Below, in pieces: positions 1 to 64,000 of a stretch of DNA of 64,000 nt (position 1 is its first letter; each line of letters begins with the position of its first letter). The stretch lies in NCBI RefSeq assembly GCF_006539345.1, contig NZ_BJMV01000012.1, positions 1-64,000 of the forward strand, read 5' to 3'. The notes under the pieces were generated by a model. That model ran no database searches. It was not told the origin of the DNA and worked only from the letters and a program-made list of their open reading frames with translations. The stretch is from Acetobacter peroxydans. GTDB taxonomy: Bacteria > Pseudomonadota > Alphaproteobacteria > Acetobacterales > Acetobacteraceae. The translations under genes were made by a program, and so were the position numbers.

Positions 1-36
1 CCCCAGAAAACCGCCAAAAATACCCTAACATCATGA

Positions 37-30714: not shown

Positions 30715-30805
30715 GGTGTGGATTGTCTCCCAAACGCCCAAGGCGTTGTGTTTTATCCAGGCTCAGGTCCCTGGTTTTACCCTGGCTCCCGGACAGGCCC
30801 TGGAA

Positions 30806-31153: not shown

Positions 31154-31487
31154 CGTGACACCGTTATAAGATGATCGTTGCTGCTCCAGATCCGCTGTCG
31201 CGAATCAAGTTTCACGATAATGCACCCTTTTGAGGCGCTTTCTGAACAAAGGCCGGACAGGACGTGACCCAATATAAGCCACAGCATCCAGCGGCTCCAA
31301 AAACCTGAAACATCTCTCACGGATCAATCTATTCCGTCAGTCACAATGCTGATTTTCTGCTTGAAATGGCCCTTTAAACGGTAGAAATTCTTTCTTTAGG
31401 GAGCCCGCCTCAGCATCGCCATCCAGCGCAACCCCCGCGTAGGGGTGATCTGCTGCCGGATTTGCATCTACAAATCCAAACCTGACA
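31154..31487. other. Non-coding segment between moron and transposase remnant
   Basis: About 330 bases without a credible gene. The composition is mixed and falls between the AT-rich moron and the GC-rich phage genes. It probably derives from the decayed insertion element, but I could not identify terminal inverted repeats. Confidence 0.35.
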
Positions 31488-31682
31488 TTGAGATTAGGCA
31501 GGACAACCAAGATTGAATCAAGGGATCTTCAGTCAAAAGGCACCCCGAAAGCGCATGGCCCGTATAAGACATTATACAACCGCATCATCCGGTGGAGCCG
31601 CCTGGGTGTTTTTGACAGAATTTTCGTCGCCCTGACGGAGTGGGCTTGCCGTTCTAAGCGCCTGAAGATTGACGAAGAGTAA
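31488..31682 (+). pseudogene. Remnant of an IS5-family transposase
   Basis: A 64-codon plus-strand fragment, opposite to the phage genes. The middle reads YKTLYNRIIRWSRLGVFDR and then IFVALTEWA, which matches the well-known region of IS5/IS427-group ORFA (KTLYNRFVRWSRLGVF type). The catalytic DDE part is missing and no inverted repeats were recognised. It is therefore a decayed insertion inside the baseplate module. Confidence 0.72.
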
Positions 31683-31774
31683 CAACGCGCTATGACAGGC
31701 GCGCTCATAGTTCCATGTCCGCAATCCACATCGCAGCGAGCTTCATTTTCTACCTCAAGGAATGAGTCTTGCGC

Positions 31775-32431
31775 CTATTCTGGAGCGCCTGTTTTTCCGC
31801 TTCCGCTCATGACGCCGGTATGGGTGTGCGTCTCCAGGCTGATGCTGCCTGCCTGCATATCGCCCGTGGCGGATACGGCCCCGCGAACCGTTACATCACA
31901 GTCAATGACGCAGGCTGCGGCATCGACAACAAACCGGCCCGTAGTGCTGACATGCACATCCCCCCCAACCCAGCCGATATACTCCTTTGGCGCGGCGTTC
32001 AGCAGGCCGCCAAGGTAGAGGGCATCGGCCATGTCATGCTGGCGGAATGATCCGGGAGCGGCTGCATCGCGCGTGGTCTTGACGGTGGAAATATCGCGCC
32101 CGCAGATGATGATAAGCCCAATATCCCCCACCGCCGGGTCGCACAGGAATGCCCGCGCGCCGCCCTGCAGGCGGATATAGGGCACGTTGTAGAGAATACC
32201 GTGTGGTACGGTGCGGCCCGCGCCATCCTGCTGGTGCACCATGGGCTGCACGTCCACAAACCCCACCGGGTTCAGGCCCTCGCCATGCACCGCCACCACA
32301 CGAACGGGCAGGTTGGCGCCCATCATGGATAAAAGACGCCGGATTACGGCGTTCATGGCATTGAAGTCGCTCGCGCTGTCCTCTGGCCGCTGCGTGCCAA
32401 TCAGCCTATTGTGCAAAGCCCTGCCCGGCAA
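31775..32431 (-). CDS. Baseplate assembly protein V (gpV/Mu gp45-like spike)
   Basis: A 218-residue spike protein. The N-terminal OB-like region reads MMGANLPVRVVAVHGEGLNPVGFVDVQPMV, and the C-terminus has the typical THTHTGVMSGSGKTGAPE, a metal-binding spike tip motif. The start is probably the TTG at 32431, which has AAGG seven bases upstream and overlaps the hub gene. The moron and the transposase remnant separate it from the gp46-like gene, an unusual break in an otherwise tight operon. Confidence 0.82.
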   Translation of the reverse strand: MPGRALHNRLIGTQRPEDSASDFNAMNAVIRRLLSMMGANLPVRVVAVHGEGLNPVGFVDVQPMVHQQDGAGRTVPHGILYNVPYIRLQGGARAFLCDPAVGDIGLIIICGRDISTVKTTRDAAAPGSFRQHDMADALYLGGLLNAAPKEYIGWVGGDVHVSTTGRFVVDAAACVIDCDVTVRGAVSATGDMQAGSISLETHTHTGVMSGSGKTGAPE

Positions 32432-33347
32432 GGTCTGGCCTTGCCGCCTCTATCAGAGTAAACCACGGCCCCTGCGTGCGCCCGCTTTGCAGCCTGTGCT
32501 GCACGCTCTGCACCACCCACAACCCGGTTGCCGGGAGAGCAACCCCCTGCGCGGACGAGCCGGTGCCCTGCAAGCTGATGGTATCACGAAAACCGATGCC
32601 CGGATTAAACAGCATCCGCAGACCCACGCCGTACTGGCTATAGGCGGGATAACCTATCAGCCCCGTGGCGACAGAAACCGGCACAGCAGCGGACCGTGCC
32701 GCTTCCATGGAAAAAGGCCAGATACACAAACGCCCCATGCCGATATGGTAGCTAACCCCGCCAGCGCGGGCGCAGGCATCTATCTGCTCGGTGGCAGCCC
32801 CCTTGTAATACACCCCGCCCCTGAGCACGGTTTGCACGCCGTTATTGACAAAACCTAGCCCGGCCTTGGCCGCAATCGCTGCCATGATGGTGGCCACCGG
32901 CGCATCGCGCCCGAAGGACGTCGGGCTGACTGGCAGGGCAGCGGGCAGGGCGATGGAATGCGCCTGCACCACAAACACCGCATCGGGCGTGGTTTCGTAT
33001 TCCACGAACGCCTCGACAATGCCGCCTGAAAAAATCACCGGCCGGGCGGCCTCGGCCCCTCCGGCCATGACAGTCACGCTGTTGCGGCCCTGTGCCACCA
33101 CACCCACCTGTGCGGCGGAAAGCCGGTTAACCAGTGTTGGCGGCATCCCCTCTATCCGCAGGGTACACACCATGCCGGTTTCCAGCCCAGTGCTGAGCAC
33201 CTGACACGCCACGCGGTAATCGCTGAGCGTTACGGTTTCCGCGCCGGCGCCGGCACCCACCCCCTGCGAGGGATCAGGCGCGAAGGTGAACGCCACATCA
33301 ATCCGCCGCGCCGCCAGCGCGGTATCGGCCCCTGCGCTGTCAGACAT
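32406..33347 (-). CDS. Baseplate hub protein (gpD/gp44-like)
   Basis: A 313-residue protein in the hub position, immediately before the spike gene. The segments RRIDVAFTF, TLSDYRVACQVLSTGLETGMVC and RSVTV-like RNSVTVMAGG resemble hub proteins that hold the spike. The ATG at 33347 has a strong GAGGAGGGG upstream; the longer frame to 33578 is the shadow of the previous gene. It overlaps that gene by eight bases. Confidence 0.75.
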   Translation of the reverse strand: MSDSAGADTALAARRIDVAFTFAPDPSQGVGAGAGAETVTLSDYRVACQVLSTGLETGMVCTLRIEGMPPTLVNRLSAAQVGVVAQGRNSVTVMAGGAEAARPVIFSGGIVEAFVEYETTPDAVFVVQAHSIALPAALPVSPTSFGRDAPVATIMAAIAAKAGLGFVNNGVQTVLRGGVYYKGAATEQIDACARAGGVSYHIGMGRLCIWPFSMEAARSAAVPVSVATGLIGYPAYSQYGVGLRMLFNPGIGFRDTISLQGTGSSAQGVALPATGLWVVQSVQHRLQSGRTQGPWFTLIEAARPDLAGQGFAQ

Positions 33348-33645
33348 TGCGCCCCTCCTCGTAAACAAGCACGAAGCGCCCGGCCAGCCCGGTGTAATCC
33401 GGGTCGTCCGTGCCCTCGGTATCAACAAAGGCAAAATCGCCCGGCAGGCCGTAACAGGCCTTGCGCACAAGCCAGGTCCGATCCTGACACAGCACCCCCA
33501 GCAGGCAGGCCGCGCCATCGCACCACAGCGAGGCAAACAGCCCGGTGCCGCGCTGCTGCAACACCAGACGAATGACATGCCCAGAAAGCGGTACGCTCAG
33601 GCTCTGATACGCCACCGCGTTGAGCGGAATGGAAACAGCCGCCAT
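33340..33645 (-). CDS. Baseplate plug-like protein
   Basis: A 101-residue protein beginning with a beta-rich IPLNAVAYQSLSVPLSGHVIRL, followed by a GLFASLWCDG segment and a C-terminal GLAGRFVLVYEEG. This is the pattern of small proteins annotated as phage baseplate plug, in the usual place before the hub gene. It overlaps both neighbours by a few bases, so translation is coupled. Confidence 0.7.
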   Translation of the reverse strand: MAAVSIPLNAVAYQSLSVPLSGHVIRLVLQQRGTGLFASLWCDGAACLLGVLCQDRTWLVRKACYGLPGDFAFVDTEGTDDPDYTGLAGRFVLVYEEGRNV

Positions 33646-34367
33646 CAGAACAGCGCCGCCGTATCCAGCGTGGATTCAGCCGCCTGCACCGCCCCACCGG
33701 ACTGCATGGCCTGCCCGGCGGGCGCGGCCGTGCCGGGGCTTGTTGTGGTGTCGAGCCGGATTTCCTGCAACGTGATCCCGGCCCAGAGCAACGTCACGCC
33801 ATGCTGGGCCTCGCGCCGCAGGCTGTAACTCTGCACATTCACGTTGGAATAGGTGACTTCCGGCGTGACCACACTGTACAGATTCAGATCATCCACGAGC
33901 GATTCAAGTGTTTGCAGGAATCCACGCCGCATCAGCATATCGGCTGACGGGCCGACCAGCCCCGTGGCCGCCAGCAGGCTTTCCAGCACGCCGCTCCCTC
34001 CGGCTGCTGCGCCAAACACCGGGCCTGAGCCATCGCACAGCATTTCCACCCTGTACTGACTGGGCTGGCGCACCTTGTTATAGGACAGAAACGCCCCCTG
34101 CTCCTGAGGCGCATCGCAAACATAACTGAACGCCTGCACATCCAGCGCCCGTACGCGCCCCGATGTCAGCACCGGCTGGTTATCGGCCGTAAAGATACCC
34201 CACTGGGCATCTGCCAGCATGATACGCGTATCATCCAGCATGGACGCCAGAACCGTGGAGGCCGAAGCCGCAACACCTGCCGTAGAGGACTGCCCCAGCA
34301 ATCCGGGCACCCCGAGCGCCACGGGAATATCCCACGCGGCGGGCAGGGACACCAAATTCATCGCCAT
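33645..34367 (-). CDS. Prophage tail protein between tape measure and plug
   Basis: A 240-residue protein in the position of a LysM-less tail or distal-tail protein. It contains LDVQAFSYVCDAPQEQGAFLSYNKVRQP and a C-terminal SYSLRREAQHGVTLLWAGI segment. The start is one of GTG 34373, ATG 34367 or ATG 34361; I favour 34367 because GAAAG lies nine bases upstream. It is probably a tail-tube or baseplate connector, but I cannot name a family. Confidence 0.6.
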   Translation of the reverse strand: MAMNLVSLPAAWDIPVALGVPGLLGQSSTAGVAASASTVLASMLDDTRIMLADAQWGIFTADNQPVLTSGRVRALDVQAFSYVCDAPQEQGAFLSYNKVRQPSQYRVEMLCDGSGPVFGAAAGGSGVLESLLAATGLVGPSADMLMRRGFLQTLESLVDDLNLYSVVTPEVTYSNVNVQSYSLRREAQHGVTLLWAGITLQEIRLDTTTSPGTAAPAGQAMQSGGAVQAAESTLDTAALF

Positions 34368-34408
34368 GGCCACATACTTTCATCAATCAGAATAACAGGG
34401 GCAGGCTG

Positions 34409-35656
34409 CTATCTCATGCCCATATTGGCGTACCGCGCCTGCGCCTTGAGACTGGACACGCTTCGCGCGCCCTCCGCGCTCAGGGACGAAAATGCCTTGC
34501 GTTCAGAGCGCGTATCCGAAAATGCTTCACGTCCAGCAACGGGATTGCGCCGCTGTTCGGATACAACGGGTGCCAGGGCGGTTCGGGTCATGGCCGCCTG
34601 CACCGCCGTGTTCATGCCACTGACATAAGCTCTGTTCCCCTGCGAGGGCAGAGCCATCGGGTCAAACTGACCCGCGCCCGATGCCGCTGCTGCCCACGGA
34701 GCAGAAAAGCCGATCTGCCCATCAGGCCCGAACCCGTACGGCCCCTCCGGCCTGCCAGCGGCACCCGCCTGCGGGGCCAGCGCATAGGGCAGTCTCGCAC
34801 ACAGAACCGCAAGCGCGAGCGTGTCCGCCATAGGCCCCGCACCCGCGCCGGACAGCACCTGCATAACGCGCCCCATCCCTATAGTAACGCCCCACGCCTG
34901 CGGCCCGCTGACACCCGCGCTACTCAGGCCGGGCCAGAACCCGCCACGCCCGCCCGCCAGACCATTTCGGACTCCCCGACGACGGACAGACAGAACACCT
35001 GCCGAAAGACCAGACAGAGCGCCAGACAGAGCACCCGACCGAGCGCCGGATACGATGCCGGGCAACGCGCGGGGGACAGTGCCGCTCTGGCCACCATGCA
35101 GGCTCCAGCCTCCCCCTTCGTCCTCCGAATAAGCCGCCGCAAGGGCGGATGGCCTACCGCCCAGCCGGATGGATCGCCGCACGCCTAGCGTCGCCGGAGC
35201 CTCTGCCCACGGCAGAATATCCGCCGCCATAAGCCCGCTCTGCCGTGCCATGACCCCTGCCGCGACCACCTGCGCCCGCCGGGCCGTATCCACCCGCCTT
35301 ACCGCCCGCGCCGCGGCAAGGCCCGGCCATACGCCCCCGCCAGACTGACCGAGCCTGCGCCCGGACACGCCCTGCCTCAACCGCAAAGCCCCGCCCTCGG
35401 CCATGGGGGATACTCCGCCATCCGCGCCAGACGACAAACCCTCACCCTCCGTCCGGTACAGGGCCTGCCGCACCACAGGCGCCGATACGCCCGGCACCGC
35501 CGCACCCCCCATACCACCAGAAGGCCCGGCCCCACCGCCGTGCATAACCCGCCGGGCACGCCTGAAAATATCCAGCAGTTGCCATGCAAGATCGGCAGAA
35601 CCCCATGCCGGGCCGGGCTGGATCATGCCCGGCGAGCTGTCATATGCCAGTGCCAT
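34409..35656 (-). CDS. Putative tape measure protein
   Basis: A 415-residue protein rich in Gly, Ala, Arg and Ser. It lies between the tail chaperone and the baseplate genes, where the tape measure gene is expected. It has no evident membrane helices or peptidase domain, and the centre is low-complexity with GALSG-like repeats. It is short for a tape measure and would predict a tail of about 60 nm. The assignment rests on position. The start at 35656 lies three bases after the small frameshift ORF. Confidence 0.55.
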   Translation of the reverse strand: MALAYDSSPGMIQPGPAWGSADLAWQLLDIFRRARRVMHGGGAGPSGGMGGAAVPGVSAPVVRQALYRTEGEGLSSGADGGVSPMAEGGALRLRQGVSGRRLGQSGGGVWPGLAAARAVRRVDTARRAQVVAAGVMARQSGLMAADILPWAEAPATLGVRRSIRLGGRPSALAAAYSEDEGGGWSLHGGQSGTVPRALPGIVSGARSGALSGALSGLSAGVLSVRRRGVRNGLAGGRGGFWPGLSSAGVSGPQAWGVTIGMGRVMQVLSGAGAGPMADTLALAVLCARLPYALAPQAGAAGRPEGPYGFGPDGQIGFSAPWAAAASGAGQFDPMALPSQGNRAYVSGMNTAVQAAMTRTALAPVVSEQRRNPVAGREAFSDTRSERKAFSSLSAEGARSVSSLKAQARYANMGMR

Positions 35657-35659
35657 CGC

Positions 35660-35794
35660 TCAGCGGTTCCATCGCCTGATCAGCGCCATTTCAAGAAGCA
35701 TCTCAAAATCTTCGCTGTCATAAAGGGTTTGCAGATCGTTCAGGCTTGCCAGCCCTTCCGAGACAACCAGCGCCAGTCTTTCGCTTACATTCAC
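35660..35794 (-). CDS. Small tail-chaperone extension ORF (GT-like)
   Basis: A 44-codon ORF that overlaps the end of the chaperone gene by GTGA and ends EMLLEMALIRRWNR. Its position and ending resemble the short second chaperone ORF that in many phages is read by frameshifting. It could be made independently from the GTG at 35794. However, its frame is open further back to the slippery site at 35866-35872, giving a chaperone fusion of about 197 residues. Confidence 0.65.
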   Translation of the reverse strand: MNVSERLALVVSEGLASLNDLQTLYDSEDFEMLLEMALIRRWNR

Positions 35795-36252
35795 GCACCG
35801 GGCGGCGGGCTGTCCTTCTCCCCGCCCGCCTGCGCGGGAGGGGAGAACAACAGGCCGACGCCCCTGAAAAAATCCACATGCAGGGCGAAGGCTTCCTTCT
35901 GGAGCCAGCCCACGGTGGGAATTTCCTCGATGTCGCTTTCATGCAAGGGGCGGCGCAGGACGGGATTTGCCGGGTCTGGCTGCACGCTGACACAGCGCAT
36001 CAGCCGCTCCAGCAGACTGTCCATCCGCTCGGATTCCATGGCGGCAAACAGGCCGATGCCCGCCGCCGCCAGCCCCGCCAGCCCATCCTCCGGGGTAATA
36101 TCCGTCAGGTCGGCGCCGCACTGCAGGGCAGCCTGCAAACAGTGCCGGCCCCATCTGTCCGCCTCGAAGGCGGACATACGGGTAATGACAAAACGCTTGT
36201 TATGATCAGCGCCTTCCATCGGCACGCTCAGCGTGACTTCACGCACCGCCAT
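35791..36252 (-). CDS. Tail assembly chaperone (gpG-like)
   Basis: A 153-residue protein in the slot between tail tube and tape measure. It starts AVREVTLSVP and contains ITRMSAFEADRWGRHCLQAAL, as in tail assembly chaperones of contractile phages. The start overlaps the tube stop by ATGA. Codons 127-129 (GAT TTT TTC) contain a -1 slippery heptamer. The zero-frame tail after it is a low-complexity PPAQAGGEKDSPPPGA stretch. Confidence 0.72.
   Translation of the reverse strand: MAVREVTLSVPMEGADHNKRFVITRMSAFEADRWGRHCLQAALQCGADLTDITPEDGLAGLAAAGIGLFAAMESERMDSLLERLMRCVSVQPDPANPVLRRPLHESDIEEIPTVGWLQKEAFALHVDFFRGVGLLFSPPAQAGGEKDSPPPGA
35818..35872 (-). promoter_or_regulatory. Candidate -1 programmed ribosomal frameshift signal
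   Basis: The heptamer T TTT TTC lies at 35872-35866 in phase with the chaperone frame. A hairpin follows: CTCCCC at 35845-35840 pairs with GGGGAG at 35823-35818, extended inside by CCCGC with GCGGG around a four-base loop, one mismatch in total. The -1 frame has no stop from the heptamer to 35660. The 20-base spacer is longer than the usual 5-9. Confidence 0.6.
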
Positions 36253-36686
36253 CAGACACCTGCCGGCCAGACAGACTGCCACCGGATGGCAAAGCTACGC
36301 GGGTGCAGCACCCGCCCGGCAGACGGCGCAACAGCCATCGCACGCAGCACGCCGTTGACCATGGTATAGCGCCGCCCGGTGCCCGTGAGCGTCAGCTCAC
36401 CCCCCAGCCGGAACAGGGCGCGCGCCGTCTGCTGGGCCGCCATAATGGCCTCGAACACCAGAACGCTTTCGCTCCCGGCCGAAAAATGGATGACCTGATC
36501 AACCGGAGCAGGCGTCCAGCCCGTGTTGAGATAGCCATCCACCGACATTTCGGTTTCAGCGCAGTTCTGCTCCGCCGTATCCCATGCCTGATCAGCCGCA
36601 AAGTTCTGAAGCGTGATAGGCGCGTTGTACAGCCCCGCCACGGTAATGGTAAAAACGGCATTAGCCGCCGTAATATCGTACGCCAT
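36252..36686 (-). CDS. Tail tube protein
   Basis: A 144-residue protein directly after the sheath gene, the usual place for the tube protein. It begins AYDITAANAVFTITV and contains VDGYLNTGW and a FEAIMAAQQTARALFRLGGELTL region typical of phage tube proteins of the DUF3277-like group. The ATG at 36686 lies two bases from the sheath stop; the in-frame sequence before it is the antisense-like shadow of the sheath. Confidence 0.72.
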   Translation of the reverse strand: MAYDITAANAVFTITVAGLYNAPITLQNFAADQAWDTAEQNCAETEMSVDGYLNTGWTPAPVDQVIHFSAGSESVLVFEAIMAAQQTARALFRLGGELTLTGTGRRYTMVNGVLRAMAVAPSAGRVLHPRSFAIRWQSVWPAGV

Positions 36687-36688
36687 GC

Positions 36689-38080
36689 TTACTGCACCTC
36701 GACACTGCTGAGCTGAATGGCCTGCACGCTCTGCCCATCGGCGTACCACAGCCGCGCGGGCGGCGTTGTGCGGGCCACACGGTAGGAGGCCGCCGCCGTG
36801 GACACACCAGGCTGGAAATACCACCCCTGCGCGGCAACCGCGTCCGCAGCCGCCGCAACCCCCGCTGCATTGGCGATCTGCTGTTTCTGCGCGGTTGTCA
36901 GGCTGACACCGGGCTGGATGGCCCCAAAGGCCAGCGCGCTGCTGATCGTGTCCTGCACGGCGGCTTTTACGAGGGTATCGCCCTCGGTATTGTACGGAAT
37001 CTGCCCGGTATTGAGCAGGAGTGTCACCAGAGCCTCTGTCAGGCTGGCGTTAAGCCAGATCTGGTTGACAAAACTGTCCGCCCAGGCAAACCGGCCCGAC
37101 ACGCTGCCCGGTCGCATGAAAGAGAACAGGCTGCTGCCGCTGGCGTAACTGCCATAAAAATTATAGCCGTTTGCAATCAGGGTGGCGGCACTTGTGCCAT
37201 CCGTAACGGCAGGACTGACCAGCCCCGACGCATCCTGAATGAAGGCCAGCGTCTGCCGCCCCGCCCGCGTGCCGAAGGAGAGCGAGGCCATCCATCCCAG
37301 ACACAGCGCCGCGCTGACAGCCCCGCCATACACCGCCGACACGCCTTCGATCGCCTGCTGCGCCAGCCATACGCCGAAGGCAGTGGTGCTGTTCTGGGTC
37401 ACGGCCTGCGGGTCTGTATCCCACAGAACGGCCCATACGGTGCTGTTCTGTGTGCCAACCCACGTGGCCAGAGCCTTTTTTTCCTCCAGAGCGGGTTCAA
37501 AAGCCGGGGCAAAACCGTTCCAGACCCCGCTGGCCCGGCGCAGGGTGTCCATGCGCGTGGATGGGGCATCGAGGCTGGCAGCCTCCAGCGTTACGGTCGG
37601 GGCCTGTGTGTAGCCCGTGCCGCCGTCGGTTACGGTAATGCCCGTCACGACCCCGCCCGAGACCGTGGCCGTCGCCGTGGCCCCCGTGCCACCACCGCCC
37701 GAAAAGGTGACGCTCGGGGCGGTCTCGTAGCCGCTGCCGCCCTGCGCCACCGCAATGGCCGAGACAGCGCCGCCGGACACGCTGGCCGTGGCCTCGGCCC
37801 CCGAAGCGGCAGGCGCGTAACCGCCAAACATCAGGCTGGCGGGCGTCAGAACCGCCGTGTCATACCCGGCGAAGTAAACCTGCGCCATGGCGTATTCGCT
37901 CGAACCCGTGCCGAACGCCGTCCCGACATCCGCAGCGCTGCTGTAGCTCAGCACGGTGCCCGCGGGTACGATAGCGGTCTGCTGTGTCAGCACCAGCCCG
38001 GTCAGCCCGTTCAGTCCGCCACCCGCCACCAGTACGCCCGGCGTAACCTGCACAATTGAAGAAATGGGAATGCCTGCCAT
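36689..38080 (-). CDS. Tail sheath protein, DUF3383 family
   Basis: A 463-residue contractile sheath subunit. The N-terminus [14 protein letters not shown] and the [12 protein letters not shown] segment match DUF3383 proteins, and the C-terminus carries [18 protein letters not shown]. The ATG at 38080 has AGGAG seven bases upstream. Residues near 105-170 hold two copies of a glycine-rich motif ([17 protein letters not shown] and [14 protein letters not shown]), probably a surface-exposed insert. Confidence 0.85.
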
Positions 38081-38084
38081 GGTT

Positions 38085-38678
38085 TTACTCCTGTGGCGGG
38101 TAAGCTGCATCGGTCCCGATCGTCAGAACCGGCAGAGTTGTTGCAAAATCCTGCGGAATACTCAGGATAAATGTGACCTGCGCCAGAAGCGTTATCTCCC
38201 AGCAGTCTTCGTACTGATGTTCGGCGGTCGCAAAGCCGCTCTGGTGCGCGCCCTGCACGTCCAGCGGGGACAGGGCCAGCCCCTGCGCGGAGAGGAAGTC
38301 CGCCGCCTGCATGTCCCGCCACAGGGCAATGACACGCTGCGCCATATCCCCCGCCCCTGGCCCGAACAGACGCACCAGCACGCTCAGTTGCGTGGGCATG
38401 GTCAGGTCGCGCGTGGTGGCGGTGTAGCGCCACCCCCCGCTGGACAGGCGCTCGCGCCCGGCCAGTGTGAGCGTTGCAAAGGGAGGCAGAGGAGGCGCCA
38501 CCCGGTTGGACTGCCCGGCCACAACCCCCACCCCGGCGGGCAGCACCGCCAGCAGCCAGGCGCGCAGGGCCGCACACACCGCGCTTTCGGACGGGCTTTC
38601 CACCACGCCACCCCCTGTGGGTGCGGACACTGTTACAGACTGGCCGGAAGCTGCCGTGTCACCACCACCTTCACCCAT
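38085..38678 (-). CDS. Phage neck terminator-like protein
   Basis: A 197-residue protein before the sheath gene. The arrangement [15 protein letters not shown]...[17 protein letters not shown] and the later [17 protein letters not shown] follow the pattern of neck terminator proteins (LIC_12616-like) in myophages. It overlaps the preceding gene by 46 bases. It likely caps the tail or joins it to the head. Confidence 0.7.
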
Positions 38679-39034
38679 TCGCTCTCTCCCGAGGCATCGG
38701 CCCCCCAGTCTTCCACCGAGCGGGTCACGAGCCAGTCAGACCCGGAAAATTCCAGAATATCGCCGCCTGTCTGCGAGGAACGGCTGAGGGCGCGCACGGC
38801 GGCATTGACGTACACCACCCGCAGGTCAGCCTGCTGGTCGAGCCCTTCCACCAGTTGCAGGTCTTGCGGGCCGGGCGGCTGCACCATGATCTGCACCGGC
38901 ATGGCGGTATAAAGCGGCGTCACGCTGCCATCGGCATTGACCGTGCTGCCGGTGCTGACATGCAGAACCGCAGCCTGCGGCGGGCTGGCCTGCGCACAGA
39001 GCGGGCCGGCCAGCAGGAAAAGGTTCAGCCCCAT
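38633..39034 (-). CDS. Phage head-tail joining hypothetical protein
   Basis: A 133-residue protein in the connector region between the DUF4054 and neck genes. It contains [21 protein letters not shown] and [19 protein letters not shown], a beta-rich pattern seen in head completion or connector proteins of DUF3383-type phages. The ATG at 39034 overlaps the end of the DUF4054 gene by ten bases. Confidence 0.6.
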
Positions 39035-39471
39035 GGCGGTCTCCTTCGGCGCATATCCGGCACATAACGCGCCTGACGCAGCCCCCGCGTAGCCGCCCAG
39101 AAGGCCGCGCCATAGGAGGTCTGGGCAAACCACGCCGCCCGCTCGTCCAGTGTGGCGTAAGCGGTGCTGACCGTAACGCTCCCCTGCGTGGCCGAGGCCA
39201 CACGCCCGACCAGCCCCGCCTGTCCACCCTGCCCCTGCGGCAGCTCCAGTGTTGCGATATGCGCCACCAGCAGCCCCAGCAGCACGGCCCGGCGCGCCAG
39301 ATCGCGCACAGGGCCTGCGGGCGTATTAGCCAGATACAGGGTTGCCTGATCAAAACAGGCCTGAGCCTGATCCTGCGTCACGGCCTGCGCCAGCACGGGG
39401 TAGCGCACGGCCCAGGTGGCATAATCAAACGCCACCACGGCCGCCGCGCCCTCCGGCGTGGCCGCCGCCAT
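39025..39471 (-). CDS. DUF4054 family head-tail connector protein
   Basis: A 148-residue protein matching DUF4054: [35 protein letters not shown], then a helix ending [13 protein letters not shown], and [26 protein letters not shown] at the end. This family fills the gp6-like adaptor position. Its start overlaps the stop of the preceding gene by one base. Confidence 0.85.
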
Positions 39472-39911
39472 CAGCCGGGGTCCGCGTGGGCGGGGGTAAC
39501 CCCCGGCAGGGCGTTAGGGTCCAGCCCTTCCAGTCCCGTGCGCTCGCTGGCGCACTCCGCCAGCCGCGCTTCTGCATCCGCCGCGCGGGCCTGCGCGAAA
39601 ATCAGCCCGTTCTTCAGCGGCAGATAGCCGGGATTCTGCGCCACCCATGCCTCCCAGAAGGCCGCATCCACCTGCGTGCACCCCGCAAGACCCAGCAGGC
39701 GGTTATCACGGGCATGAAAGCGGGCATCGCGCCGCGCCCCGGCCAGGCGCACACTGGCGCGCGGCACCGGCGGCGCCATGACAGGCGAGGCAGAACCCGC
39801 ACGGGCGCGCAGGTCTTCGGGGTCATACAGGTCCAGCACCAGCCCCGAGGGCAGGCGGCAGACAACCGTAAGCGTTTCCGCCCCCCGGGCGGATGAAACA
39901 GCATGAGCCAT
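39471..39911 (-). CDS. Prophage structural-region hypothetical protein
   Basis: A 146-residue protein between the capsid and DUF4054 genes. It contains [17 protein letters not shown], and [25 protein letters not shown] in the middle, which is typical of small phage proteins of unknown role in this position. It ends with low-complexity Ala/Glu-rich residues. The conserved synteny suggests a head-associated or connector function. Confidence 0.6.
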
Positions 39912-39971
39912 CAGGAATACAGTCCGTTCTGTTAAAAGGATTTCGCAGGCATACCGGCCAGACGGAGCGGC

Positions 39972-41033
39972 TCAGATCCCGGCCATGGTCACGCAGGCAT
40001 GGGGGTAAAACCAGATGGTGCCCCACGTGCCCTGCGATTTCTTCTGGCGGAAATTGGAAGAATACTGTTCGACCACATGGGCGCGCAGTTTTTCCGTAAA
40101 GGCCGTGGTGACGCTGCGCTGGCCTTCGATCTCCGTTGCAAAAAGCTGCATGAGCGTGGTGGCCGCCTGCCCGCCCGCCAGAGCCGTGCCTGCTTCGGGC
40201 AGGGTTTCCACCACCAGGTTGGGCAGGTTCTTTTTCAGCAGGTCCGCCAGCGAAACCTGATACTGGTTGGTATAGAGCAGGCACTGCTGCCGCTCGGTGG
40301 GGATAACCAGCGTCATCGGGCTTTCCAGCGTCAGGTTGCCGCCAAGCTGGGTGCTGAGCACGCCAAAAGCCTTGAGAATATCGGCATAGACCTGAACCGG
40401 GTCGGCAATATCCGCCCAGGTATTGCCCTGCGCGGCACTGCCAGAAGGCGCAACCTTGGCCACAGGAGCAATAGCGGCGGGCAGGGAAGGATCATTCAGC
40501 GCGCCGAACAGCTCCATACCAGCAAGGCCAAACAGGTTGATGGCGTTGGCGTTCTTGTTCAGAACCGAGATACTGGCAAGATTTTTCTGGTTTACCCAGT
40601 CAATCCGCGCCGCGCCCATGCGCTCCACCTCGCGCTCGCCCCAGCGTGTCCATGTCTGGAAATGAAAGGACTGACGCGGCACCCAGTTGGCATTGCCATC
40701 CGCCGTACCGCTGGCGCTGTAGTCATCATAGGCCGAGGCATAGCCAGACAGTTCCACCACCGGGAACTGCGCCGTGTCCGTTGTCCAGTCGCCCTTTTTC
40801 GCGCTGCCGTAAATGGCCTCGGAACGGGTGGGCGTCACCAGCGCGCGGATGATCACCGGGTCGGTATAGGTCGTGAACAGCGCGGGCACCGCGCTGTTGG
40901 GCGCGGTGGTGGGCGTATAGGCCGGCAGGTCCGCATCCATGGCCATTTCAGAAAAATAGCCCCGCACACCGGCAAGATGAATACCCCAGTCCCGTGCGAG
41001 GGTCTGGGCATCGTTTCTGAAAATATCGCGCAT
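39972..41033 (-). CDS. Major capsid protein, DUF2184 family
   Basis: A 353-residue capsid subunit of the DUF2184 type. It begins MRDIFRNDAQTLARDWGIHLAGVRGYFSE and contains FHFQTWTRWGEREVERMGAA in the first half. The ATG at 41033 is right; the longer frame to 41336 is a shadow of the cement protein gene. Codons 131-141 are matched by the oldest CRISPR spacer at the end of this window, with only wobble-position differences. Confidence 0.82.
   Translation of the reverse strand: MRDIFRNDAQTLARDWGIHLAGVRGYFSEMAMDADLPAYTPTTAPNSAVPALFTTYTDPVIIRALVTPTRSEAIYGSAKKGDWTTDTAQFPVVELSGYASAYDDYSASGTADGNANWVPRQSFHFQTWTRWGEREVERMGAARIDWVNQKNLASISVLNKNANAINLFGLAGMELFGALNDPSLPAAIAPVAKVAPSGSAAQGNTWADIADPVQVYADILKAFGVLSTQLGGNLTLESPMTLVIPTERQQCLLYTNQYQVSLADLLKKNLPNLVVETLPEAGTALAGGQAATTLMQLFATEIEGQRSVTTAFTEKLRAHVVEQYSSNFRQKKSQGTWGTIWFYPHACVTMAGI
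40612..40643 (-). other. Protospacer matched by CRISPR spacer 1
   Basis: These 32 bases match the spacer at 63732-63763 at 30 positions. The mismatches are at plus-strand offsets 3 and 9, which are crRNA positions 30 and 24 and codon third positions in the capsid gene. The flank on the PAM side reads CGC on the minus strand (40646-40644). Confidence 0.9.
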
Positions 41034-41038
41034 TGCGG

Positions 41039-41542
41039 TCAGTTTCCTGAATTTGTGGCCGCGAGCGGGCCAGACAGAATAATGGGCGAGCCCGCAGCCC
41101 CGCCGCGCGCCACCACCCAGCCTGTTTCCACCGTGCCGGTGGGGGCGGCCCCGGCAGCGCCGGTGCTGATAGCCCCTGTGGCCAGTGCGGCATAAACCGC
41201 CTGCCCGCTGGTGGCCTGCGTGGTGGAAAGGGCGAACACATCGCCCCCTTCGGCCAGAGCCAGCATGAACCCTTCGGGCACAGTCATGCTGGCTTCCTGC
41301 AGATACTGTGTCAGCATGCCCTGCTGGGTGCGGCACACAAAGCCGCCGGGCGTGCCCGTGCCGGTGTTGAGCACGCTCACCCCATCGGCCTGCACCCAGC
41401 CAAAGGCCGCAACCGTGACCCCGCCTACCCCTGCGCGAAAGCCGTCAGGCCCCGCGACTTTGAACCGACGGGGATTGTCCGTGGCCCACGCACCGGGAAA
41501 ACCGGCGGGCCAGCCGTAATTAACGGAATTCGGAAAAGACAT
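41039..41542 (-). CDS. Capsid cement protein (gp24-like)
   Basis: A 167-residue head-decoration protein. It begins SFPNSVNYGWPAGFPGAWA and contains the glycine-rich GPDGFRAGVGGVTVAAFGW, as in structural cement proteins of DUF2184-type phages. It lies directly before the capsid gene with only five bases between them. It should stabilise the shell. Confidence 0.75.
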   Translation of the reverse strand: MSFPNSVNYGWPAGFPGAWATDNPRRFKVAGPDGFRAGVGGVTVAAFGWVQADGVSVLNTGTGTPGGFVCRTQQGMLTQYLQEASMTVPEGFMLALAEGGDVFALSTTQATSGQAVYAALATGAISTGAAGAAPTGTVETGWVVARGGAAGSPIILSGPLAATNSGN

Positions 41543-41554
41543 GTCCTGCTCTCC

Positions 41555-42913
41555 TTAAAACTTGCGCGGTGCGCGCAGGCCGTACCGGGCGGAGAAATCC
41601 CCGCTCCCCGCGCCGTCCTGCGCCCCTGTTGATGAACCCGCAAAACCGCCCGTGCCCGCGCGCGCCGCCACCAGCGCGCGCAGTCCGGCCATGTTCACGC
41701 CGTCGGTCTGCACGCCACATTCCCGCAGGGCGTAGCGCAGGATGTCTTCGGCACTGTCCATGCCCAGCACGTCGCCCACCAGCGGGCGCACCATGACCAG
41801 CGCGGCACTGACATCGCGCTGGCGCTGACGCTCAGCCACAAGGGCGGCATCCACCGCCCTGCGCACGGTGCTGTCCTGCGCCATGCCCTGTGCCGAGGCC
41901 TGCATGGCCCCCTCCGCGCCGGTATCGGTGCAGGAACGGTCGGCGGTGGCTGCGCCTTCCGGCCCGGCCAGATACGGGGCAAGCCAAGCAGCCAGCGCCT
42001 GCGGCCCCGCCGTCATGTCCAGCACGCCGGATGCCAGGGCAGCGCCCATCTGCGCAAAAAGCTCGGCGGCGCTGCACACTCCGGCCTCCGGCTCGACGCC
42101 CGCTTTGCCCGAAGCCTGCGCCCCAGCACCCGCTGATACGCCAGCAGCGGACAGGCCCGACGCCTGCGCGCCCGTGGCAGAAGCACCCGCAGCAGCCCCC
42201 GGCAAGCCAGCCCCGGCCTGCCCGGAGCGTTCACCCACAGGCCCGCTCCGCGCCGGGTCGGTCTGCCCGGCGTCGCTCCGGTCGATACCCGCCCCCGGAC
42301 GGGACGGCCCGCGCGATGGAGAAAATGCCATTCCATGTTCCTTTGGTTGTGCGTCCGCCACCAGCACGTCCGGCCCGGCGCGCCCCGCGCGCACAAGAGC
42401 GACGTGGTTGCCGCGGATCTGTGTCATGCGCCCATCGTACGGCTGGCCCTGCCAGACCCCCGGTTCCATCACCGGCACGTAGCGATAGGCACACGAAAGT
42501 TCACGCTGTTCTCCCGAGCGCACGCCTTCGATGGCCTGCGCGTTCCAGAGCACCAGCGCATTGGTCAGATACGGGTCGGTAAACCGCGCATCCGTGCCGG
42601 TTGCCCCCACCACCAGATCGGGCCGGGGGGTCTGGGCCGTGACATGCACATGCTCGGCCAGAACCGGAATACTGTTGAAACTGTCAGCCGCCTTTTCAAG
42701 CTCTTCGGGTGCGCGCAACAGGCGGTAGGCCTGATCAGGCACCAGCCCCAGTGCCTCCGCCCCCGGAATTTCACGCCCGAAATAACGGTTGACCGCCGCC
42801 TTGCTAATGGGTGTCACGGCCACGCGCAGGCGGCCATCCTCGTCCATCAACCGGACAGACCCTGCCCGGTCATAGGCCAGACACAGGGCAGGGTTCATGT
42901 GTTGTCCTGTCAT
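41555..42913 (-). CDS. DUF2213 family prohead protease/scaffold protein
   Basis: A 452-residue protein. The N-terminal 200 residues match DUF2213: [33 protein letters not shown] and [13 protein letters not shown], then [13 protein letters not shown]. This family supplies the capsid maturation protease. The rest is low-complexity Ala/Gly-rich sequence and a helical C-terminus, probably the scaffold. The start overlaps the portal stop by ATGA. Confidence 0.82.
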
Positions 42914-44553
42914 GACGATGCCTTTTGCACAGCGGGAGCCGCCGGACCGGGCGCGGCAGGGCGCAGGCCCAGCGTGCGGTACAGACTGGTGCCGTCCGCC
43001 GCCTCACGCGCGCGCGCTTCCGCCGGGGTAATCTTGCCGGAACGGATGTTGATTTCGTCCATATCGGCTTTCTGCCGTTCCACGGCGGCACTTTCCTGTT
43101 CGGACATCTGCCACAGCGGCACGAACTCGAACTCCAGCGCGGGATCGATCCACCCCCACAGATCAAGCTGCACCACCCGCAGGAGCGCGCGCAGAACCGG
43201 GGCCATATGCGCCTGCTGAAAAGCCGCTATCTCATCGTAAAAAACCCGGATTTCCCCTTCCGATGAGGCATTGAGCCCCTGAGGCTGCAACCCGAACAGC
43301 TTGACCAGCGGAATACCCGGCACCGCCGCCATGAATTCCTGCGCCTGCGCCTGAAGGTCTGACAATCCGGTCAGAGACGCCGTGCTGATGGAGAAATCCT
43401 CCGTCTCGCGGTCGAGCACAAACGTGCCGTTGCTGCTCTGCCAGGCGCTCATGGCGGCAAGACGCGCGCTAACACCTTCGGCATCAATTTCCGGCGCGCC
43501 GCCAGGGTCTGCCATGCCGCCCGCCATGTCGGTGCGCAGAACACGGGTAGCGTAATTGCCGATCATGTCCGACACGGCCTGCCGTGTGCGCAGGAAATTC
43601 TGCACCGAGGCTTCAAGCATCTGCGGCAGGGCCAGCCCGCCAAAGTTATAGGCGGGCTTGAGCAGGTCGGGCACTTCGTAAGGCACCATGCTCAGCAGCC
43701 GGGTCGCGTGCACCTGCGTGCCCTGCACCCACCAGCCTGTGGGCCGGTAATAATCAGCCGCCAGCGGATTGAGCGCATTGTACTCGGCTGGTGTTGTCCA
43801 GACCGGGTCGATCAGGCTCAGCCGTTCAAGCTGGCCGCGCCCCACGCCGTGGCTGGTCAGCCGCAGCGGCAGGGCCTCGCTTCCCGCCGTAGCTTTCAGC
43901 CCGATCCAGACATGCCCCATGCCGTAGCCCAGCGCCTGCGCCACCAGACGGCGCATGAGGTCGCGCACTTCCAGCCGGGCAAAGGCCTGCTCCACCGCGC
44001 GCAGGCGCACGGCAGCGTCACGCGGGTAAGCCTGCGGGGGAACGGCCTGCGTATCCTGCGGCAACCCGCCTTGCGTATCTGCCTGCATGTTTTCGGGCGT
44101 AGTGCCCGGCAGGCCTTCTCCCTGCGGCCCGACGATGCGCAGACGTATCCACTCCCGCGTGGCTTCACGCGCGATGATTTCAACCGGCTTGCGGAACTCC
44201 GCACGCAGCATCATGGCCGCGAGCGTTGGGTATCCCCTGAATGTCAGACCTTCGGCCAGAAGGCCGTTACCCCACGCGAGCCCGCCACCGGCATGATCCC
44301 ATACGGCGGAGGCCATACTGTCCTGCGCCAGAACCGCCCCCGCGCCCCGGACACTGGACGGCGGCTGATACGGCGCAAACAGCGCCGCCGCCGCATCCAT
44401 GCCCGGCGCACCCGCCACCGCACGCCACCGCTCCTGACGCGCCTTTCCCGGGGCATGGTCACGCGCCTGTGCGGCAACGGCCTGATCCTGCGGCTCCGGC
44501 GGGGGTGCAGATCTGCGCCACGCCGTGATGCGACGCCAAAAACCCTTTGTCAT
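42910..44553 (-). CDS. Phage portal protein (DUF1073-type)
   Basis: A 547-residue portal protein. The middle contains [22 protein letters not shown], the pattern of a conserved portal segment, followed by a loop and [26 protein letters not shown]. The C-terminal part has [35 protein letters not shown]. Databases sometimes label such proteins as anti-CBASS Acb1 family because of a shared domain; I see only portal features here. It forms the dodecameric DNA channel. Confidence 0.85.
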
Positions 44554-44555
44554 GC

Positions 44556-45821
44556 TCAGTCCATTTTCATGATCTGGCGCACCGTTCCTGCCGTAAAGCG
44601 AGGCAGGGTGCGCCGGTTATGAATAAGCCCGTCCAACGCGTAGCGCAGGGCATCCATCCAGTGATTATTGGTGTCCTCCACAACAGGCAGGACATCTTCC
44701 GTGGCCGGATCGACCCGGTAGGCATAACTGTGGAACTCGGCCACAACGCGCGTGCAGCGCGGGTGAACCACAATGCGGCGGAAGGCCCGCAGGCGGGCAA
44801 TGCCGTCCTCCACACTGCCAGGCCATTTCCGGGCCGCCGTTATTCTGAAACCGTGCCTGCGCGCCAGAAAACTGATTGTCTCGGGCCGCGCGCCATCCGC
44901 CCGCCAGGGCCACTGGCGCGCGCCCGGCACCGTGTCCAGCACCGCGGGAATAGCATCAAGCTCTATACCCACGCCCCCGGCCTCGTAATCGACATACAGC
45001 ACATCCTGCGCCACCCAGCAGCGCAGGGCCGCCAGAGGGTCTTTTGAAAAACCCCAGTCAACACCGTAATAGGGGCGAATATCGTCCGGCGTGGAAAACG
45101 CCCGCACCTCCACCATGCCGGAAAAGACCAGTGCATCGGAGCGGGTGCGGTAAGCCCCTTCCCACACATGGGCGTAGTCATCCGGGCGGGCGGCGGCATC
45201 CGCCTCACGCTCACGCGGCAGAGCACCTTCAGCAAACCACGGATTATCGGCCCAGTTGGCCCGCACGGCCACAAGATCAGGCCGCTCGCTTCCCGCCCCC
45301 CGGAAGAACTGATCCACTGGGTCATGTTCAAAAACCGGGTTCCAGCTTGCCCATATTTCCGAATCCTTTTTGCGCAGGGTAGGACGCAGCAGGCGCCAGC
45401 TCTGGGCGGAGAGGTTCTGGGCCTCTTCCACCCATGCTCGATCGAACCCTTCAAGCGATTTGATGCTGTCAGCCGTATGGCTGTGCATTCCCTGAAAAAT
45501 GATGAGACCATCACCCGGTGTCCGAATGGCGCGGTCCTGCACATCGAACCACGGTTCCAGCCCGTAGCGGGTAATCTTGTCCAGAATCAGCCTCCGTGAT
45601 GACTGCTCCATGGATTTCTGTACCTCGCGGATACACACGCTCCGGTGCCCCGGCAGGCGCAGGTGCTCCTCCACCACGCATTCGCCAAAGAAATGCGACT
45701 TGCCGGAACCACGGCCGCCATAGGCCCCCTTGTAGCGGCACGGCCCCAGCAGCGGGGCAAAGACCCGTGCGGTCGGCATATCCAGCGCGCGCAAAGCGCG
45801 TTGCAGCCGCCGGTCTTTCAT
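44556..45821 (-). CDS. Terminase large subunit
   Basis: A 421-residue packaging motor. The Walker A motif GGRGSGKS is at about residues 35-42. A Walker B-like FDRAWVEEAQNLS follows, and the nuclease aspartate is in YYGVDWGFSKDPLAALR. The C-terminal DALRYALDGLI resembles other PBSX-type terminases. Its start overlaps the small subunit stop by ATGA. Confidence 0.93.
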   Translation of the reverse strand: MKDRRLQRALRALDMPTARVFAPLLGPCRYKGAYGGRGSGKSHFFGECVVEEHLRLPGHRSVCIREVQKSMEQSSRRLILDKITRYGLEPWFDVQDRAIRTPGDGLIIFQGMHSHTADSIKSLEGFDRAWVEEAQNLSAQSWRLLRPTLRKKDSEIWASWNPVFEHDPVDQFFRGAGSERPDLVAVRANWADNPWFAEGALPREREADAAARPDDYAHVWEGAYRTRSDALVFSGMVEVRAFSTPDDIRPYYGVDWGFSKDPLAALRCWVAQDVLYVDYEAGGVGIELDAIPAVLDTVPGARQWPWRADGARPETISFLARRHGFRITAARKWPGSVEDGIARLRAFRRIVVHPRCTRVVAEFHSYAYRVDPATEDVLPVVEDTNNHWMDALRYALDGLIHNRRTLPRFTAGTVRQIMKMD

Positions 45822-46327
45822 GAGGGCTGGTCTGGCGGGTCGATAATTACGCGCCGTACCACAGCCGGGCGCTCAGGCCGCGCGTCGCTCTCTTCCGCCT
45901 TCTCGCCATATCGGGCGGGAGCGCGGCGGGCCATGAGCCATTTGAGCGTATCAATACGCAGGCGCATGGCCGCCGTGTCCTCTCCCTTGATGGTTTCAAG
46001 TTCCTTGATCAGCCTGTCTTCGAAGGCTTCCGCCGCCAGCATCCGCGCACGGGCAAAACCCGCCGCCCGCGCGCCGCTGCCCCGCACATGGCGGCGCAGC
46101 ACATGCCAGCCCGGCATATCCGGCCGCTCCGCGATCTCGCGCAGGCTGCATCCTTCTTCCGTCAGGCTGAGCACCAGCCGCCATTGCGCGGCCGACAGCG
46201 GTGGGTCAGGCGTGCAGGCTTTCGCGCTGTAGGGTGGCGTGTGCCCGCGCGGATCGCTGGCCGGGCTGCTCTCTGGCGCGCTCCCGCCGGGCGGACTGTC
46301 CGGCCCGGCCATATCCTGTTCCGTCAT
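45818..46327 (-). CDS. Terminase small subunit
   Basis: A 169-residue DNA-recognition subunit. A helix-turn-helix lies in LTEEGCSLREIAERPDMPGWHVLRRHV, and the ending KWLMARRAPARYGEKAEE is typical. The ATG at 46327 follows from the domain; the longer frame to 46903 is not coding-like. The first 50 residues are polar and disordered. It overlaps the hypothetical ORF 46206-46775. Confidence 0.8.
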   Translation of the reverse strand: MTEQDMAGPDSPPGGSAPESSPASDPRGHTPPYSAKACTPDPPLSAAQWRLVLSLTEEGCSLREIAERPDMPGWHVLRRHVRGSGARAAGFARARMLAAEAFEDRLIKELETIKGEDTAAMRLRIDTLKWLMARRAPARYGEKAEESDARPERPAVVRRVIIDPPDQPS

Positions 46328-46775
46328 GCTCTGCCCATTCCTGTCCTGTCCGGCAGAAAACACGTAGCCCGCCGCCGCGCAGGGGCGGCTCAGCCTGAGC
46401 GTGCCATGCAACGATACCCCCATGCGGCGCAGAGGCACGCGGGCCAGGCCGGACAGCGCCGGACTGTTCGGCTGCCTGAAAGGTGTTTTCGCGCTCAAGC
46501 ATGGAAAGAATACGTCGCATGGCTTCAGCGGGCATCCGCCCCTCCGCCTGCAACGCACCGCTATGCACACGCCCGACGCAGCGCACGCGCTGATCCGGCC
46601 TGATACCGGCCTCCGCACTGTCGCACAGAGAGAGCGATACATCCGCCCTATGGCGTGTATTTTCCGATTCCGGCACAAGAAAACACAGGATGGCGTGGTC
46701 CTGTCGTACGCCGACGCATACGGCCATGTTGCGCCCAAGGCGCACAATGTCCGAACATTTAACTGTCTGTAGCAT
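46206..46775 (-). CDS. Hypothetical prophage ORF before terminase
   Basis: A frame of up to 189 residues starting MLQTVKCSDIVRLGRNMA and containing HAILCFLVPES. The first two thirds look protein-like; the last part overlaps the terminase small-subunit gene in another frame and may not be real sequence. It fills the gap between the terminator at 46821 and the terminase genes. It could be a small regulator, but this is uncertain. Confidence 0.35.
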   Translation of the reverse strand: MLQTVKCSDIVRLGRNMAVCVGVRQDHAILCFLVPESENTRHRADVSLSLCDSAEAGIRPDQRVRCVGRVHSGALQAEGRMPAEAMRRILSMLERENTFQAAEQSGAVRPGPRASAPHGGIVAWHAQAEPPLRGGGLRVFCRTGQEWAEHDGTGYGRAGQSARRERAREQPGQRSARAHATLQRESLHA

Positions 46776-46820
46776 GTTGTTTCCGAGAATACGCCAGACC
46801 GGCCGCAGGCATCCGGGCAT

Positions 46821-46844
46821 AAAAAAAGCCGCCCGAAGGCGGCT
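46821..46844 (-). terminator. Terminator between replication and packaging modules
   Basis: AGCCGCC at 46827-46833, loop CGAA and GGCGGCT at 46838-46844 are followed in minus-strand direction by seven T residues. It separates the early and late transcription units of the prophage. Confidence 0.85.
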
Positions 46845-46912
46845 GGCTGGCGCAGAAATTCCAATGTAAGAAAATACCTATCAAGCCCGCGCGCGGATGG
46901 CAAGATGTTTTT

Positions 46913-62517: not shown

Positions 62518-62830
62518 GGCGGTGTCCTTTTCTGAACCTGTGCGGACGGCAGAATACCCGGTCGGGTCATACGGCGCGCAAGGAAAAATCCTGTCGTTGA
62601 GATGCGTCAATTTCGACAGACACGCGTAAACGGCGGCAATGACGTTCAGGTGATTGCGCGGTTTGTGCCATGGGAACCGGGGCGGAAACCGCTACAATGG
62701 CCCGGCCATCTGGCATGGCATCCTGCTTCTCTTTATGATGCTGCGGAAGCGTGATGCCACTCTGACAATCAGGAGACTGGCATGGCCTTCAACAGAACTG
62801 GCCGCAGCCAGTGGAAACGGGGGGAAACAG
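62518..62830. promoter_or_regulatory. Divergent region between ohyA and second DUF1275 gene
   Basis: About 310 bases holding both divergent promoters. An inverted repeat, CTGTCG at 62591-62596 and CGACAG at 62614-62619, may bind a regulator. An in-frame but unrelated 20-codon leader ORF begins at the ATG at 62782. Nothing else is apparent. Confidence 0.4.
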
Positions 62831-63592
62831 GTGCTTGTTCATGAGGGGGCGGAGCGCAACGCCATCATAGACAGGCGTCTGGGCTGTTCTCTGGCCGCTG
62901 TTGCGGGCGCGGTCAATGCGGCCGGGTTTCTTGCTGTCGGCTATTATTCGGCGAACATGACGGGCAATGTCTCGGCTCTGGCCAGCGGCCTGCATGAAGG
63001 CCATATGGAGCTTGTGCTCTCCTGCTGCGGCCTGATTCTGGCCTTTGTAGCCGGGGCCGTGCTTTCTGCCCTGCTTGTCAACACGGGACGGCGGCGGCAC
63101 CTGCCGTCGATCTACGCGCGGAGCATCCTTCTGGAAGCCTGCCTGCTTGGGCTTCTGGGGGGCGTGGATCTGCTGCTTTCCGCCCAGCCGCGCGGGCCGA
63201 TGCTGGCCTACGGGCTGAGCTTTCTTATGGGGCTTCAGAACGCCACGGTTACGCGCATTTCTGGAGCCCGTGTCCGCACCACCCATATGACCGGGATGCT
63301 CACCGATGTGGGGCTGGAACTGGCCGACTGGCTGGAGGCCCTCTTTCGCCCGGTCGACCCGACCCGACGCGCAGGCACGCGCGAACGGCTTGGCCTGCAC
63401 GCCGCCATTGCGCTGTCGTTCACACTGGGCGGCATTGCCGGAGCTTTTCTGTATGGCTGGTGGTCTGGTCTGTTCTTCCTGCTGATGGCCGGGCTTCTAG
63501 CGTGTCTGGCATTGCCGGGCGCGCTCTCGCGTGAACAGATACCAAACCACGAGCCAGCCCCGGCTCCGGCTACTTCCGGCCCTGAGGCCTGA
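62831..63592 (+). CDS. DUF1275 (YoaK-like) membrane protein
   Basis: A 253-residue membrane protein of the same family as the gene at 60063, with a longer, Pro/Ala-rich C-terminus. The signature is YYSANMTGNVSALA, the second repeat LSFLMGLQNATVTRISGARVRTTHMTGMLTDVG. I chose the GTG at 62831, preceded by GGGGGAAA; the longer frame from 62654 has an unconvincing N-terminus. The protein has about six helices. The substrate is unknown. It lies 110 bases before the CRISPR array. Confidence 0.82.
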   Translation: MLVHEGAERNAIIDRRLGCSLAAVAGAVNAAGFLAVGYYSANMTGNVSALASGLHEGHMELVLSCCGLILAFVAGAVLSALLVNTGRRRHLPSIYARSILLEACLLGLLGGVDLLLSAQPRGPMLAYGLSFLMGLQNATVTRISGARVRTTHMTGMLTDVGLELADWLEALFRPVDPTRRAGTRERLGLHAAIALSFTLGGIAGAFLYGWWSGLFFLLMAGLLACLALPGALSREQIPNHEPAPAPATSGPEA

Positions 63593-63702: not shown

Positions 63703-64000
63703 CGATTCATCCCCGCGTGGGCGAGGAACACGCACCCATACGCTCCACCTCGCGCTCGCCCCACGGTTCATCCCCGCGCGAGCGGGGAACACGACGCCCT
63801 CTGGCCGCCCCTGCGCGAACAGATCGGTTCATCCCCGCGCGGGCGGGGAACACTTGCGTTTCCTACTGGGAAAAATACTAAATTACGGTTCATCCCCGCG
63901 CGGGCGGGGAACACCCAAGAACACGCTGCGGGCCAAGGATAGTGAACGGTTCATCCCCGCGCGGGCGGGGAACACAAACATACCACACGGGACGCAATCC
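63703..64000 (-). CRISPR. Type I-E CRISPR array, trailer end, cut by the window edge
   Basis: Five 29-base repeats start at 63703, 63764, 63825, 63886 and 63947, with four complete 32-base spacers and a fifth cut off. The minus strand reads GTGTTCCCCGCCCG then CGGGGATGAACCG, matching the type I-E consensus, so transcription runs right to left and the leader and cas genes should lie past 64000. Repeats 3-5 are identical, repeat 2 has one change and repeat 1 three, as expected for the old trailer end. Spacer 1 targets the prophage capsid gene here. Confidence 0.97.

Follow-up and report, generated by a model that had tools for sequence, protein, structure and literature searches.

Self-matching spacers in a CRISPR array beside two stumps of a type I-E cas operon in Acetobacter peroxydans

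A CRISPR array that holds a spacer against a prophage of the same genome raises the question of how the lysogen survives. Such an array lies at the end of the stretch of Acetobacter peroxydans DNA analysed here (the window), which runs from position 1 to position 64000 of contig C12, a contig of 69891 bases in a draft genome of 2.70 Mb and 29 contigs.

The array and its self-matching spacers

The following features of the array, and of the prophage that it matches, are considered.

63703 to 64000 in the window, minus strand: type I-E-like CRISPR array with 29-nt repeats and 32-nt spacers
63703 to 63731, minus strand: degenerate terminal repeat at the trailer end, with three differences from the array consensus
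63732 to 63763, minus strand (also the crRNA sense): spacer 1, the oldest remaining spacer
63793 to 63824, minus strand: spacer 2, with a match at 95103-95135 of contig C11, inside a DotO-like gene for type IV secretion/conjugation
64037 to 64106 of C12, beyond the window: leader
27260 to 46903, minus strand: prophage structural block (terminase, portal, protease, capsid, sheath, baseplate and tail fibre, from PHROGs matches)
39972 to 41033, minus strand: major capsid (major head protein) gene, with the start placed at Met 102 of a 454-aa ORF, giving 353 aa
40612 to 40643, minus strand: protospacer of spacer 1 in the capsid gene, with two mismatches (24 and 30) and the 5' flank CGC at 40644-40646 of the minus strand

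The array is composed of six repeats, starting at 63703, 63764, 63825, 63886, 63947 and 64008 (the sixth, 64008-64036, lies outside the window), and five 32-nt spacers. Its 29-nt repeat contains a palindrome of the I-E type and recurs with a period of 61 nt, and its assignment to type I-E rests on the likeness of this repeat to that of an intact I-E locus in another Acetobacter (locus L031 of genome G034). The four leader-side repeats are identical to one another. The leader is AT-rich (70 nt, 36% G+C vs 63% for the window) and homologous to the leader of the intact locus. In that relative the cas genes are followed by the leader and the array, and because its leader and cas2 end align on the high-coordinate side of the array studied here, the leader must be placed there, which makes the opposite end, with spacer 1 beside the most degenerate of the six repeats, the old one. 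A preliminary description of this DNA had oriented the array in the same way and had taken spacer 1 for the oldest one left; both points are borne out, and the opposite orientation was not found.

The alignment of spacer 1 with the capsid gene also reproduces exactly the coordinates, the identity (30 of 32) and the mismatched crRNA positions (24 and 30) of that description. Positions 1-23 are free of mismatches, leaving a near-perfect protospacer with an intact seed in the own genome, and inspection of the reading frame agrees that both differences are synonymous changes at third codon positions. The best matches of 1000 shuffled versions of spacer 1 had 8 to 13 mismatches, and the best non-self matches of 300 random 32-mers of the window had 7 to 14 (both searched over window positions 1-63680, on both strands). 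Chance is excluded, since these controls never fell below seven mismatches vs the two observed, and the self-match is confirmed as real. The capsid gene itself is identified as a major head protein by PHROG phrog_264 (E 7e-60), and its highest-identity homologues belong to named Acetobacter records; the position of its start is a judgement, some homologues aligning only from about residue 100-118 and others over the whole ORF.

The nearest site found for spacer 1 is that of A. lambici (L039), with one mismatch (position 30) and the flank CGC. IMG/VR contained no exact copy, and a degenerate version of the spacer retrieved 12 stretches, each with at least two mismatches. In 299 sampled genomes of the family, of which only eight (own included) belong to the genus, making the sample weak for the genus, nothing within one mismatch was found but the array itself. 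The preliminary description derived spacer 1 from a relative with the same capsid residues; these sequences make an origin from a related phage likely, and the exact source was not found among them.

Spacer 2 matches its site on the plasmid-like contig C11 with three mismatches (14, 18 and 20) and the 5' flank AAA. An ORF of 1062 aa without any Pfam or NCBIfam match contains the site; across the 801 bases that were compared, its DNA is 87% identical to a gene labelled dotO on plasmid pAOF1 of A. orientalis. Its neighbours include a CagX-type conjugal transfer protein, along with proteins whose matches to secretin and type IVB secretion models stay below the curated cut-offs. No IMG/VR match was obtained for spacer 2, even with its three variable positions left open. 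Spacers 3-5 had no exact match in IMG/VR and no convincing one in the own genome (best non-array E 0.94, with a query that also held the repeats).

Stumps of the cas operon and an intact relative

Beyond position 64000, where the preliminary description had proposed to look for intact cas genes, only two stumps were found, namely the end of cas2 and a truncated cas3 HD.

64107 to about 64181-64197 of C12, beyond the window: relic of the cas2 end
C12, between the two relics: 5.3 kb of unrelated DNA
69480 to 69779 of C12, beyond the window: relic of the cas3 start

An 86-aa ORF adjoining the leader has its best Cas2e match at the C-terminus (residues 59-84, model positions 71-96 of 102), where its peptide is nearly the same as the end of the 95-aa Cas2e of L031; about the last 25 codons of cas2 survive. 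The sole Cas3_HD match in the genome (C12:69563-69742) covers model positions 7-80 of 207 (74/207), and the 115-aa ORF that contains it resembles Cas3 HD models in their first part only. Both break edges are inside one contig, and the ORFs in the DNA between them include those of a methyltransferase and a radical SAM protein.

Genome-wide searches covered Cse1, Cas1, Cas7e, Cas6e and Cas3_HD, and neither Cse1, Cas1, Cas7e nor Cas6e had a match in the own genome, whose assembly is estimated to be 99.99% complete. The searches for Cas1 and Cas3_HD were positive in 9 and 7 of 14 control genomes, E. coli included, and those for Cse1, Cas7e and Cas6e in only 2 of the 14, with E. coli negative. The absence of Cse1 is informative because the same search detects it in 8 of 49 genomes of the genus, a genus-wide control that, among these three proteins, is particular to Cse1. 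As DNA, the L031 versions of Cas5e and Cas11e gave no match in the 6.3 kb beside the array.

The intact relative shows what is missing. L031 encodes Cas3e, Cas8e, Cas11e, Cas7e, Cas5e, Cas6e and Cas1e in this order, followed by a full Cas2e. Two blocks of DNA align with it, the first being 300 bp from the cas3 start (81%) and the second comprising the cas2 end, the leader and the array (77% over 382 columns), and the operon DNA between them has no match in the own locus. In L031 these blocks are about 8.2 kb apart, separated by most of Cas3e, all genes from Cas8e to Cas1e and most of Cas2e, vs 5.3 kb in the own genome. The two loci share 32-nt spacers, a repeat that differs at one position and the order cas3 ... 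cas2 - leader - array, but the own locus lacks cas8e, cas11e, cas7e, cas5e, cas6e, cas1 and most of cas3 and cas2. Both stumps remain, and the relative has the complete operon in matching order, so the loss was internal to the operon. This conservation is seen on the cas side only, as the protein flanking the trailer end (62654-63592) has no meaningful match to its counterpart beside L031.

We are highly confident that the array is what remains of a type I-E locus after the loss of its cas operon, with spacers that are powerless and a lysogen that survives for this reason. In an ancestor with a working I-E system, a related phage that shared the capsid peptide would have given rise to spacer 1, and a conjugative element to spacer 2. 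A later deletion or replacement would then have removed everything between roughly codon 100 of cas3 and the final 25 or so codons of cas2, some 8.2 kb if it had the size seen in the nearest intact relative found, and the 5.3 kb of unrelated DNA now lies in the gap, the array, the leader and the two stumps having stayed in place and order. As Cascade, the Cas3 nuclease, Cas6e and Cas1 are lacking, the spacers would direct neither cutting nor adaptation; they would be harmless, and therefore the lysogen survives. The well-kept leader and the four identical leader-side repeats would fit a recent loss. The preliminary description had seen a live conflict between spacer and lysogen, while naming absent or inactive cas genes as something that would remove it. 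With Cse1, Cas1, Cas7e and Cas6e not found and cas3 and cas2 truncated, that conflict does not hold: the paradox of autoimmunity dissolves because the cas machinery has been lost from the genome assembly, and it is resolved by anatomy, both broken ends of the operon being still in place.

The locus is a new example of a known situation, in which self-matching spacers persist in a defunct I-E relic. Lactobacillus acidophilus NCFM likewise keeps self-targeting spacers in an array whose cas cassette appears to be deleted (Stern et al. 2010, as described in PMC6990116); unlike the case described there, two operon stumps remain here, and what the spacers match is a prophage and a conjugative element. 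Within the same genus, eroded CRISPR loci with truncated or partial type I modules have been described in strains with resident prophages (PMC9379143), in a paper whose main text has no occurrence of either self-targeting or PAM. Another Acetobacter genome, negative for Cse1, contains a 77% match to the cas3 start (G021:C59:6705-6934, L073), possibly a second eroded locus.

Two further observations concern the DNA between the two stumps. At about 69387-69470 of C12 (L007:5788-5871), adjoining the truncated cas3, there are two degenerate CRISPR repeats 55 nt apart, which are possibly debris of a lost array or a mini-CRISPR like CreA. A CreA-like antitoxin guide was considered, and the stretch between the repeats had no convincing target in the six sequences scanned (8/26 mismatches at best, besides itself), so that the pair is treated as array debris. 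The replacement DNA also carries, on the minus strand, two copies of a structured element of ~160-200 nt (C12 about 65039-65259 and 69233-69404; L007:1440-1660 and 5634-5805), with folding z-scores of -3.8 and -2.5. One copy has a sub-threshold Rfam match to sRNA-Xcc1 (32.2 bits, gathering 53, E 5e-4) and there is none at gathering level; in an alignment of seven sequences, 6 of 57 pairs are kept by two-sided changes in at least one sequence, a count taken without a shuffled control. Further matches to the element occur in contig C10 of the own genome (G000:C10) and in five other Acetobacter genomes.

Flanking motifs and alternative explanations

Alternatively, the array could be still functional, served by cas genes acting in trans from a replicon missing in the assembly, and the prophage could survive because CGC is not a valid PAM. 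The good preservation of the leader and the leader-side repeats would agree with this, as would the draft state of the assembly and the existence of Acetobacter plasmids with apparent I-E arrays, and the flanks are also in its favour. CGC fits none of the type I-E classes listed in PMC8482600 (AAC, AAG, AAN, AAT, AAA, AC, AG and AWG), and both resident sites lack the AAG that is seen in some relatives. This explanation is nevertheless improbable, as Cse1, Cas7e, Cas1 and Cas6e have no match in the 2.70-Mb assembly and the operon of this very array is gone; that no cas genes lie outside the assembly either is our inference.

Among 22 distinct sites homologous to the protospacer of spacer 1 (own included; 23 sites minus a spurious one with 10 mismatches, L042:399, flank aac), the flank is CGC in 15, AAA in four, AAG in two and CAG in one, and it corresponds to the codon (Arg, Lys or Gln) directly before the capsid motif. 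With CGC outside the I-E classes of PMC8482600, the prophage would probably be a poor target even if Cascade were present. The pAOF1 site for spacer 2 has two mismatches (14 and 20) and the flank AAG, so in both self-matches the resident copy lacks AAG and some relative has it. These two cases are only suggestive of an acquisition from AAG-bearing relatives, followed by the entry of PAM variants.

Arrays of relatives were also compared with plasmids and phages. That of G011 has three exact protospacers in A. pasteurianus plasmids (10 records), with the flanks TTG, TGG and AAG, and one further site with five mismatches and the flank ACG. All four have a G adjoining the protospacer and both resident self-sites have none, a comparison of few sites and of a different repeat variant. 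The G015 and G034 arrays had no match in plasmids, and that of G011 had none in phages; the search with the G027 array gave apparently array-to-array matches only.

Plasmids of A. pasteurianus of 184-192 kb seem to carry arrays with similar I-E repeats (NC_013210.1 about 123524-124955; NZ_CP021924.1 about 170110-171447), and spacers, perhaps with cas genes, may move on plasmids in Acetobacter.

Protection of the prophage by an anti-CRISPR protein against a live system is very improbable: it has no direct support, and although 5 of 10 ORFs were unmatched in one PHROGs scan, which makes inhibitors of a novel type possible, the searches found neither Cascade nor a full Cas3 that it could inhibit, and among the 30 window ORFs scanned with PHROGs none matched a family described as anti-CRISPR. 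That spacer 1 has been kept to regulate the prophage, by crRNA pairing without cutting, is hardly credible even with a match that is complete outside positions 24 and 30, given that repression by type I-E crRNA requires Cascade and Cas6e, that Cse1, Cas7e and Cas6e were not found and that the flank is non-consensus.

Codon register of the mismatches

The preliminary description attached weight to the two mismatches falling on bases that type I-E Cascade flips out and leaves unpaired (every sixth position of the guide). The positions are right, 24 and 30 with a perfect seed, but their value as evidence for targeting is not upheld. The protospacer follows the codon frame, its third positions being 3, 6, ... 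30, and encodes the capsid motif WGEREVERMG, whose four-fold-degenerate third positions are at 6, 12, 18, 24 and 30 and whose one- or two-fold ones are at 3, 9, 15, 21 and 27. With equal weights for the synonymous alternatives, 15 of 18 are on flipped bases, and the probability that two synonymous third-position changes both do so is 0.65, vs 0.02 for two random positions of 32. Because the four-fold wobbles of the motif coincide with the flipped bases, the placement at 24 and 30 is mainly a consequence of the peptide and no special evidence for targeting. In 10 of 14 distinct Acetobacter capsid sites (own included) every mismatch is on a flipped base; over all 22 sites the count is likewise 10. 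For a protospacer in the reading frame, codon structure by itself can produce mismatches at every sixth position, and before it has been corrected for, such mismatches should not be taken to indicate targeting or escape.

A guide in such a register ignores most synonymous drift. For the guides of type I-F3 transposons, a review comments in a related way on mismatch tolerance and wobble variation (PMC11406308), and literature searches of titles and abstract openings, a weak test, gave no study of codon register in type I-E immunity among the papers listed. It is conceivable, and in our judgement unlikely, that two layers of escape succeeded each other, in which a prophage and a conjugative element would have entered as PAM variants (CGC and AAA vs AAG) before the cas genes were lost, and that selection on retained spacers possibly favoured a guide register proof against synonymous change.

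The idea that the AAG PAM, being a Lys codon, forces I-E protospacers into the codon frame was rejected, frame 0 not being consistently favoured. Over 15 prophage ORFs, coding-strand AAG occurs 44, 50 and 20 times in frames 0, 1 and 2, and CTT (AAG on the other strand) 66, 36 and 51 times; in seven ORFs of the conjugation region of C11, the corresponding counts are 42, 48 and 17 for AAG and 15, 8 and 42 for CTT.
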